Source: Lachnospiraceae bacterium oral taxon 500 (GTDB lineage Bacteria > Bacillota > Clostridia > Lachnospirales > Vallitaleaceae). From it: 64,000 bases of DNA. Location of the stretch: positions 1,863,001 through 1,927,000 of the forward strand of contig CP027241.1 in the NCBI GenBank assembly GCA_002999035.1, in the 5' to 3' direction. The notes under the pieces are model-generated. The model searched no databases and was not told the DNA's origin. It was given only the letters and a program-made list of their open reading frames with translations. Positions 35,108 to 38,464 of the stretch are shown piece by piece (the stretch's first letter is position 1; each line of letters starts with the position of its first letter). A program made the translations under genes and the position numbers.

Positions 35108-35363
35108 GTATGAACTAACAAATCCCCGCAAGGGGACGGAAACTATGTTACATACCCATGCAAAACTAAGAAATTTCGTGTATGAACTAACAAATCCCCG
35201 CAAGGGGACGGAAACCATATACTCTTCTTTCTTATCAATTGAAATCTTAATATTGTATGAACTAACTAATCCCCGCGAGGGGACGGAAACGACTTCTATC
35301 ATCTCAAGAACCGTGAACAGATCCTTCGTATGAATTAATAAATCCCCGCGAGGGGACGATTTC
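35108..35363 (+). CRISPR. short CRISPR array, 4 repeats and 3 spacers
   Basis: 36-bp repeats at 35108-35143, 35180-35215, 35255-35290 and a degenerate last copy from 35328. They begin GTATGAACTAAC and end GGGGACGGAAAC. Spacers are 36, 39 and 37 bases (35144-35179, 35216-35254, 35291-35327) and unrelated to each other. The repeat centre forms a 5-bp stem TCCCC/GGGGA with loop GCAA in copies 1-2 and GCGA in copies 3-4, both GNRA tetraloops. The worn 3' end of copy 4 marks it as the leader-distal end, so transcription should run on the plus strand. No cas gene is in the window, so the type is unassigned. Confidence 0.9.
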
Positions 35364-35384
35364 GCAATCTTTATGTAACTGTAA

Positions 35385-36369: not shown

Positions 36370-36591
36370 ATGGGTACTATGAATTTTAATCAAAAAACGG
36401 AGAAATATATTAAAGAACTGAAAACTCAGATAGAGCTTCAAGATAAATTGATTGAATCGCAGGACGAGATTATTACAAATCTGAAAACGGAGATAGAGTA
36501 CTATAAAAAATACATCCAAGACATTGAAAAACGGTTTGATCGAATGCTCCAGTTAGGAAAAGAATTAATGGAAAAGGGCTCCAAAAAATGA
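36370..36591 (+). CDS. small coiled-coil protein, mobile-element accessory type
   Basis: 73 residues, almost entirely a heptad coiled coil (about 8-60: ELKTQIELQDKLIESQDEII and onward). The ATG at 36370 follows GGGAGGGGAAAA; the longer in-frame ORF upstream is non-coding in character. It overlaps the next gene by 4 bases (ATGA). The pair resembles accessory genes of clostridial mobile elements because of the TnpW-like tail of its partner. No enzymatic motif is visible. Confidence 0.7.
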   Translation: MGTMNFNQKTEKYIKELKTQIELQDKLIESQDEIITNLKTEIEYYKKYIQDIEKRFDRMLQLGKELMEKGSKK

Positions 36592-37175
36592 AGAATCCTT
36601 TCGAATCGCTCACCACGGTACAATATCATCTTAAGGCAGTGAGGAAGGAATTAGCCGCCTTTAAAAGCGGAGAAAAATATATTCAGATGAAAGCCTATTT
36701 TTTGGGCATTATCCGGGGGCTGGAAGCGAAAGTCAAAAAGGCAGAACAGGAACTGGCCAAGGCGCATGTTCAAATCGTAACGGTACGCAATTACTGGTTT
36801 GAAGTAGCCAATGATCTGGAACGAGAAAAGCAGAGGCAAGTGCAAAAAGTTGAAAAAGAATTAGAAAAGATGAAAAATCGGGCGCTAAAGGCAGAAAAAG
36901 AGAGAGACGATGCCAAGGATAAAATAACCGCCCAAAGACAGGAAATCTATCGTTTGGGAACCGCATTAGAAGAAGAGAAAGGAGAGCATATGCAAGAAAA
37001 AAGAAATGAACAAAATACAGGAACAAAGACAACAAAGAAGATTGGAAAGACCAGTTATGAGGTGATTGTCCATTTTAATGATAAAAGCAGTGAAACTATG
37101 CAGGATAAGCTAAAAAGGATAATGCTGAGGGAGCTTAGGAGAGAATCGAACGAAAAAAAAGATGATTTTGATTAA
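36588..37175 (+). CDS. coiled-coil protein with C-terminal TnpW-like domain
   Basis: 195 residues: a long charged coiled coil (about 45-140) joined to a C-terminal segment KIGKTSYEVIVHFNDKSSET followed by MQDKLKRIML, which matches my memory of the TnpW family of Tn4451-class elements (single small domain, function unknown). It is translationally coupled to the upstream coiled-coil gene. No transposase, recombinase or relaxase is next to it, so it is probably a stranded part of an element. The link to TnpW is by motif recall and needs a profile search. Confidence 0.6.
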   Translation: MKNPFESLTTVQYHLKAVRKELAAFKSGEKYIQMKAYFLGIIRGLEAKVKKAEQELAKAHVQIVTVRNYWFEVANDLEREKQRQVQKVEKELEKMKNRALKAEKERDDAKDKITAQRQEIYRLGTALEEEKGEHMQEKRNEQNTGTKTTKKIGKTSYEVIVHFNDKSSETMQDKLKRIMLRELRRESNEKKDDFD

Positions 37176-37295: not shown

Positions 37296-37491
37296 TATTA
37301 TACCACAAAGCGTACAAAACAGCACTATAAAAATCATAAAATTTGACAAAAATAAGCCGAAAATAAGCCGAAAATGGCTTAAATAAAGAAGCTGCATTAA
37401 ACCGCTAAAAAAAGAAGTGTCAAACTCCCGGCTTAAAAAAGGAAAAACTGCAAGGATTCTCTCGCACTCAGGCTGAGTTTGTGGTATAATA
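37296..37491. promoter_or_regulatory. divergent 14-bp inverted repeat containing -10 boxes
   Basis: TATTATACCACAAA (37296-37309) and TTTGTGGTATAATA (37478-37491) are exact reverse complements, each containing an outward-facing TATAAT -10. The right one would transcribe into the tandem repeats at 37507. Between them lies AT-rich sequence with a duplicated AATAAGCCGAA word (about 37350-37375). Confidence 0.4.
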
Positions 37492-37506
37492 TTGCGCATT
37501 AAAAGC

Positions 37507-37629
37507 GTGAGTGCAAGGTGTGAGGGAAATGAGCGGGACATGCTTGCATGTCCAAGCGCATTTTCCGAGCAGCTTATATGAGCGCTGATGCGGGGAGAAA
37601 ATCCGTAAGGATTTTCTCATGCACGCACG
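37507..37629. repeat. 122-bp structured tandem repeat, copy 1
   Basis: Begins GTGAGTGCAAGG and ends CATGCACGCACG, so its ends are near-inverted repeats. Inside are GGACATGC-tt-GCATGTCC (37536-37553), enclosed by GGAAATGAGC/GCGCATTTTCC, and GAGAAAATCC-gtaa-GGATTTTCTC (37595-37618). Only about three positions differ from copy 2, mostly in a loop. No reading frame is supported. Confidence 0.75.
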
Positions 37630-37645
37630 TTACGGGCCTTAATAA

Positions 37646-37767
37646 GTGAGTGCAAGGTGTGAGGGAAATGAGCGGGACATGCTTGCATGTCCAAGCGCAT
37701 TTTCCGAGCAGCTTATATGAGCGCTGATGCGGAGAGAAAATCCGCAGGATTTTCTCATGCACGCACG
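37646..37767. repeat. 122-bp structured tandem repeat, copy 2
   Basis: Same unit as 37507-37629, 16 bases further on: palindrome at 37675-37692 and hairpin at 37734-37756 with loop GCA instead of GTAA while the 10-bp stem is unchanged. It ends just before the -10 (TATACT, 37780-37785) of the following membrane-protein gene. Confidence 0.75.
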
Positions 37768-37813
37768 CTAAATTTATGATATACTTAAAGAAATAAGGCA
37801 AGTTGGAGGAACC

Positions 37814-38464
37814 ATGGAAAAATACGGTAAGAGTTTTAAAGAACTAAATAATCGGGAAAAGAAAGAATACATCATAGAATATTATAAATTTCATATTATC
37901 GGCGGAATTGCGGCGCTGGTGATAGTATTTTCGCTGCTGAACCACTATGTTTTTAATCCGCCGAAGCAAGTGATTGTTGATATTACGATTACCGCACCCT
38001 ATGCTGATCCGGAGGGAGTTGAAGAACTTCAGGCGGAAATAAAAAAATGCGTAGAAGCAAAAACAGCGGATAAAACCGGTCTGGTTGAGATTCTTTATTT
38101 TTCTGAAAAAAACGATCCGCAGATGCAGATGGCGATGACGGCGAAGCTGATGGGTAAGGCCGGCACCGGCGAATTAGACATTTTGATTTTGGATCAGGAT
38201 CATTTGGCCTATTTTATGGAAAATGAAATATTGCTGCCCTTAGCCGATTATCTGACCGCGGACGAGCAGGCAGAATATGCCGCCAAATCACCGGTAATGG
38301 GGGTAAAGGACGGTCAAAAAACGGCAGTGGCTTTTGCCGTTCCCAAAGACAGCCCCGTCGGGCGGCTTTTGCCGAGTGATTTTCAGGGATATTTGGCGGT
38401 TTATGTGAACGCGCGGGATATGGAACTGGTTAAGGAATTGCTGCCGATTTTACTGCGGAAATAA
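37814..38464 (+). CDS. membrane-anchored protein of unknown function
   Basis: 216 residues with one membrane helix (about 29-48, IIGGIAALVIVFSLL) after a charged N-terminus, then an extracytoplasmic domain of about 165 residues containing DILILDQDHLAYF and PLADYL, reminiscent of the core of extracellular binding proteins. No known family recognised. ATG behind TTGGAGGAACC. It lies between the structured repeats and a NERD-domain gene and is probably monocistronic. Confidence 0.7.
   Translation: MEKYGKSFKELNNREKKEYIIEYYKFHIIGGIAALVIVFSLLNHYVFNPPKQVIVDITITAPYADPEGVEELQAEIKKCVEAKTADKTGLVEILYFSEKNDPQMQMAMTAKLMGKAGTGELDILILDQDHLAYFMENEILLPLADYLTADEQAEYAAKSPVMGVKDGQKTAVAFAVPKDSPVGRLLPSDFQGYLAVYVNARDMELVKELLPILLRK

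Follow-up and report, generated by a model that had tools for sequence, protein, structure and literature searches.

A tandem pair of probable MITE-like elements with a four-way-junction body, divergent relatives of Clostridiales-1 RNA, in an oral Lachnospiraceae bacterium

Clostridiales-1 RNA has been known as a family since 2010 and was judged probably not to be cis-regulatory (Weinberg et al. 2010, PMC2864571). Rfam types it (RF01699) as a small RNA gene, and no follow-up on its function was found in the literature searched; nor did that search, outside of which most subscription papers lie, return a statement that Clostridiales-1 is a MITE. Among short non-autonomous repeats, the Correia repeat enclosed elements of Neisseria sit mostly upstream of genes, create promoters at their ends and give folded transcripts (PMC2649163, PMC10969869), and the BOX, RUP and SPRITE repeats of pneumococcus are intergenic, folded and non-autonomous and form clusters and nested copies (reviewed in PMC10969869). 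The family described here resembles each of these systems in part. With Clostridiales-1 RNA it shares a four-armed unit closed by its ends, a long second arm tipped GCUUGC, a tendency to tandem arrays and a spread within the same order, but its units are shorter (122-126 nt, against about 154-175 nt), have a much shorter third arm and a dissimilar fourth arm, and lie mostly at -10 boxes. Judged by published anatomy only, it differs from the Correia elements in its phylum, its apparent 7-bp, -10-like target and its four-way junction. BOX repeats have a modular A-B-C make-up, of which we saw none in the present family.

The window, a stretch of 64,000 nt from contig CP027241.1 of Lachnospiraceae bacterium oral taxon 500, holds two units of this family in tandem on the + strand, their starts 139 nt apart, which are 95% identical over 108 nt and 96% identical over a further 25-nt tail, much as a preliminary description of nearly identical repeats had it. 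Unit limits are structural and were set by covariance model; the 122-bp units recognized earlier fall inside them. We posit that the feature is probably a tandem pair of a MITE-like non-autonomous transposable element of ~140 bp, with a four-way-junction RNA body, belonging to a genus-specific sister lineage of Clostridiales-1. The locus comprises the following features, in which R3 denotes a covariance model widened to the order:

37451..37473, + strand: 3'-terminal fragment left by an older copy, comprising half of P4 and the 3' P1 strand, immediately ahead of the promoter; CAAGGATTCTCTCGCACTCAGGC matches the unit's 3' end
37482..37490, + strand: extended -10 element TGGTATAAT of the promoter that precedes copy 1; -10 hexamers lie upstream of most arrays
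37505..37630, + strand: copy 1, a four-way-junction unit (R3 105.3 bits, E 5.5e-24; fold z -5.4; covariation), with P1 at 37505-37514/37621-37630, P2 at about 37516-37575 with a CUUG tip, P3 at 37582-37591 and P4 at 37595-37604/37609-37618
37631..37643, + strand: linker separating the tandem copies
37644..37768, + strand: copy 2, a four-way-junction unit with the P4 loop GCA instead of GTAA (R3 105.8 bits, E 4.3e-24; fold z -6.2)
37777..37785, + strand: second extended -10, TGATATACT, 11 nt past copy 2, the presumed promoter of the downstream gene; it resembles the -10 of a sister-species orthologue
37814..38464, + strand: downstream gene for a 216-aa predicted membrane protein, with orthologues in both sister species and no Pfam family over cut-off

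Each unit consists of a closing stem (P1), a long arm with a CUUG loop (P2), a very short P3 (3 bp and a loop of 4-5 nt) and a 10-bp hairpin (P4). The hairpin (GAGAAAATCC/GGATTTTCTC, its loop GTAA in copy 1 and GCA in copy 2 on an unchanged stem), the inverted ends (GCGTGAGTGC/GCACTCACGC) and the TATAAT ahead of the repeats (within TGGTATAAT, which ends 14 nt before copy 1) are all as first reported, whereas the supposed 18-base palindrome GGACATGCTTGCATGTCC is a hairpin, a 7-8 bp stem around the CUUG tip (centre TT), and not a perfect palindrome. The P4 stem is invariant in most copies of the same genome, but the stems of the sister species are quite different, so its constancy within the window reflects recent kinship and does not necessarily indicate constraint. 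Elsewhere, the exact P4 hairpin gave one chance-like match among 85,000 species and none in viral contigs. The unit has no coding capacity, a P4 loop of 3 or 4 nt breaking any conserved frame, and for the same reason a leader peptide from TATATGAGC was discarded; a hammerhead-like core, CUGAUG, was rejected because it differs between copies, and an intrinsic terminator because 5' copies have no T run after P4. Folded as single strands, copies 1 and 2 reach -63.9 and -57.3 kcal/mol, respectively, values that 0 of 200 shuffles equalled, and neither the repeat pair nor its fold is due to chance.

The unit is dispersed. BLAST places it at 17 sites in its own 3.2-Mb genome and found no matches in the relatives searched. 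R1, a covariance model built from nine copies of the same genome, recognized 22 there and, through structure, 11 and 3 in two other species of the genus, but none in 19 further genomes from the same family. A second model, R2, raised the counts to 28 in the source genome and to 35 and 11 in the two sister species, and found weaker relatives across the order, where a match occurs in 42 of 392 genomes, a count that takes in the three of this genus. Several of these relatives (L096, L101, L065 and L091) carry TATAATGTNCG or TAAGATGTACG just upstream and are therefore unlikely to be mere look-alikes. Both sides changed in 37 of 45 pairs of the genus alignment, which holds 216 cells with both-side changes against 66 +/- 7 when shuffled and 38-82 in slid controls. 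In a permutation test that requires no stem alignment, the 5' halves of P2 paired best with their own 3' halves, at a mean of -31.2 kcal/mol (against -14.7), which 0 of 20000 permutations equalled. All 45 pairs covary order-wide (533 versus 166 +/- 11 shuffled) in an alignment fitted to the structure, which favours that result. A lack of further copies and of covariation had been named beforehand as what would count against the preliminary description; with copies throughout the genus and very strong covariation within it, that description survives.

How the family relates to Clostridiales-1 can be judged from both directions. No Rfam family matches the window at cut-off: a window copy scores 23.5 bits with RF01699, whose gathering cut-off is 48, and no window-type locus of the source genome is among the RF01699 matches at E<=1. 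The copy nevertheless aligns end to end (1-166) on the same strand and has the closing stem and the GCUUGC-tipped long arm; the long third arm and the GGGAG/GGAG fourth arm of RF01699 are absent, and P4 is a 10-bp hairpin without GGGAG/GGAG. Some loci score in both models (L101, at 42.9 bits, and one locus in genome G332 that both R2 and RF01699 match in the same orientation), and R3 recovers 9 of 23 canonical RF01699 loci at E<0.01 in the right place and on the right strand, chiefly via P2 and P1. RF01699 itself exceeds its cut-off in 92 of the 392 genomes of the order and at ten places in the source genome. Because the window family scores below the cut-off and differs in P3 and P4, we regard it as a divergent relative of Clostridiales-1 RNA and not a member. 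The earlier alternative of a non-autonomous mobile repeat or an uncharacterised structured RNA thus holds on both counts, although a relative of a catalogued family is uncharacterised only in part.

The window-type unit is short, multicopy and non-coding and has terminal inverted repeats, as expected of a MITE. In the genomes G381 and G374, near-identical RF01699 copies are delimited exactly as 183-185 bp with 18-bp inverted ends (GATRYNRGGGTCAAAAGG; the ends read GATACCAGGGTCAAAAGG and GATGTAGGGGTCAAAAGG); 11 of 12 parsed copies of this type are flanked by an exact 7-bp AT-rich target duplication, the twelfth by one of 8 bp, and a further copy (L158) shows an exact 7-bp duplication by eye. 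G381 contains more than 100 such ends per strand, compared with 1-2 for a reversed control pattern. By anatomy, these Clostridiales-1 elements are MITEs. Target duplication in the window's genus, in which the 7-mers flanking the arrays are -10 boxes, is suggestive but not proven: an automatic test found identical 7-mers near both ends of 7 of 32 genus arrays (L020, L022, L023, L052, L054, L090 and L094), against 7% in a cross-control, among them off-consensus 7-mers present at both ends (AATAATA in L052, TATAATT in L090), and L173, read by eye, adds a further case with TATATTA twice. Near the end of P1, 12 of the 32 arrays have no repeat, and in many of these, truncated extra copies might mask where the element really ends. 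The two 7-mers flanking the pair in the window differ (TATAATA on the left, TATACTT on the right); among arrays whose left and right sides are unlike, the difference often lies in the preceding TGN (TGT/TGA in L021 and L174, GGA/TGA in L089, AGA/TGA in L028). The six intervals between inverted ends that were inspected contain no transposase or autonomous element.

The arrays keep a near-fixed distance from promoter elements. Within 8-23 nt upstream of 33 of 42 arrays in the three species lies a -10 hexamer, at a distance of 9-16 nt and mostly of 12-15 nt, compared with 13% at random places within the same loci, and 27 of the 33 hexamers are extended (TGn). Array orientation follows the genes: 27 of 29 arrays, assessed by eye and by script, are co-directional with the next gene or tRNA, and the other two lie at gene 3' ends. 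Downstream genes start 12 to 184 nt from the array, with one at 345. Orthologues of nine downstream genes in the sister species G001 and G002 lack the element, and, for upstream regions that allow a judgement, a similar -10 is found near the orthologue in at least one sister species for the AKR, window, MiaB, SnoaL, RelA and PGM genes. That of the window gene's orthologue (L079), GTGGTATACT, is similar to TGATATACT in place and sequence type, and upstream of the miaB array the native -35 and -10 both appear conserved. Other loci of the source genome have 5'-truncated left-hand copies comparable to the remnant at 37451..37473.

These features suggest how the element might spread without silencing its hosts. 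A DNA transposase supplied in trans, whose existence we infer, probably moves it; the preferred target in the genus would be an AT-rich 7-mer, usually a promoter -10 hexamer (TATAATR), and this 7-mer, a hexamer with one additional base, is probably duplicated on insertion. The left -10 copy would keep the native upstream promoter sequence, and from it the element would be transcribed as a 5' leader to the gene. Ahead of the right -10 copy would stand the 3' terminus of the element itself, in many cases TTTATGG or TTTATGA, whose TG would make the -10 an extended one, and the gene would thereby retain a promoter that can do without a -35. Tandem and truncated copies could then arise when the element inserts again into the duplicated box, or through unequal exchange. 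If the TG does come from the 3' end of the element, the gene would retain its promoter after insertion and arrays could grow by repeated insertion into the same box. In its most general form, that an RNA-encoding mobile family inserts into the host -10, duplicates the hexamer and brings the TG of an extended -10 at its 3' end, so that a single promoter becomes two functional ones, for the element RNA and the host gene, with Clostridiales-1 as the body of the same transposon superfamily, the proposal is tentative, and we put its chances a little short of even. Were it true, an element that targets and rebuilds -10 boxes would secure its own transcription and leave the host gene active, and dozens of genes in these bacteria would have their 5' leaders rewired, with whatever effects on expression might follow. 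Mobile-element anatomy also offers a testable explanation of why Clostridiales-1, a functional orphan since 2010, has the copy number it does, forms tandem arrays and is found beside scattered genes; so far as the literature searched goes, neither the mobility nor the targeting of -10 boxes appears to have been described before.

The folding and covariation data demonstrate a conserved fold and, taken alone, cannot distinguish between RNA and DNA. The + strand folds 5.2 kcal/mol better than its complement, but shuffles give 5.4; base composition fully explains the difference, which is thus no proof of selection on RNA, and the count of G.U against A.C mismatches (16 versus 10) is not decisive. 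A purely DNA-level element, a cruciform or palindrome that a transposase or nucleoid protein recognizes, whose stems template-switch repair keeps perfect and whose RNA has no role, would be in keeping with this compositional asymmetry, with the inverted ends and with the 7-bp duplications in the relatives; the C(GNA)G tip of P4 and the perfect P2 stems of 17-22 bp would fit DNA hairpins as well. G(CUUG)C tips, GNRA-like loops and tandem G.A are features of the RNA type, and the family displays all three, its P3 loops being GUAA, GCGA or GCAA beside tandem G.A in G001-type copies. Together with the fixed -10 just upstream and the fixed orientation relative to genes, they favour transcription and make the DNA-level account unlikely. 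On sequence grounds, we consider the unit to be presumably transcribed and perhaps selected as RNA.

The same near-fixed promoter spacing, 5'-leader position, co-directionality, strong covariation and RNA-type loops could be claimed for a conserved cis-regulatory leader, of the riboswitch or protein-binding type, that controls the next gene and was spread by duplication together with its promoter. We find this improbable: the downstream genes, named from their translations, encode an isochorismatase, an aldo-keto reductase, an aspartase, MiaB, RelA/SpoT, a phosphoglucomutase, a PTS component, RsmI and others, with no common function of the kind that a riboswitch controls and with a tRNA among them; their orthologues do without the element; and we saw no conserved terminator or partner that would hide a ribosome-binding site. 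Stand-alone small-RNA genes, trans-acting and each with its own promoter, would accord with the Rfam type of Clostridiales-1 and with its assessment as probably not cis-regulatory (Weinberg et al. 2010, PMC2864571), but are highly doubtful for a unit that has no terminator after it, in most cases ends 12-184 nt before a gene and has dozens of copies that differ greatly in P2 sequence.

A MITE-like element may nevertheless be kept once it has landed. The rpsI stop codon is directly followed by an element in the source species, and likewise at L092, from a sister species, and at L106, from a different genus in the family; stem sequences differ and the fold is alike, and P1 includes the stop codon in the source species and in L092. 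In the source genome, about six or seven near-identical copies stand there in tandem (L171 717-1700, near 1798600-1799600). Since rpsI-adjacent copies occur in three species of two genera, retention in place, and not mobility alone, is indicated: this copy seems to have been inherited where it stands, and it might act as a 3' end structure.

Many arrays (L050, L051, L052 and L049) end in a truncated copy that has only the P1 5' strand and part of P2 and is followed by a ribosome-binding site; its P1 strand could compete with the full copy for pairing. Five tandem canonical Clostridiales-1 copies at 1032209-1032955 of the source genome (L130, L133-L139) include two with identical scores, which suggests recent growth of the array. 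Clostridiales-1-type copies also separate a T-box leader from its gene, lying right behind the leader's terminator, in L105, where the T-box is an Rfam match, and in L131, where it is a T-box-like sequence. Within the window, the gene upstream of the repeats (36588-37175) has a C-terminal Pfam TnpW domain (PF14202, E 4.7e-14), placing a transposon-associated protein next to them, and four CRISPR-like direct repeats (GTATGAACTAACAAATCCCCGCAAGGGGACGGAAAC), spaced 72-75 bp apart and the last one decayed, lie at 35108-35366.
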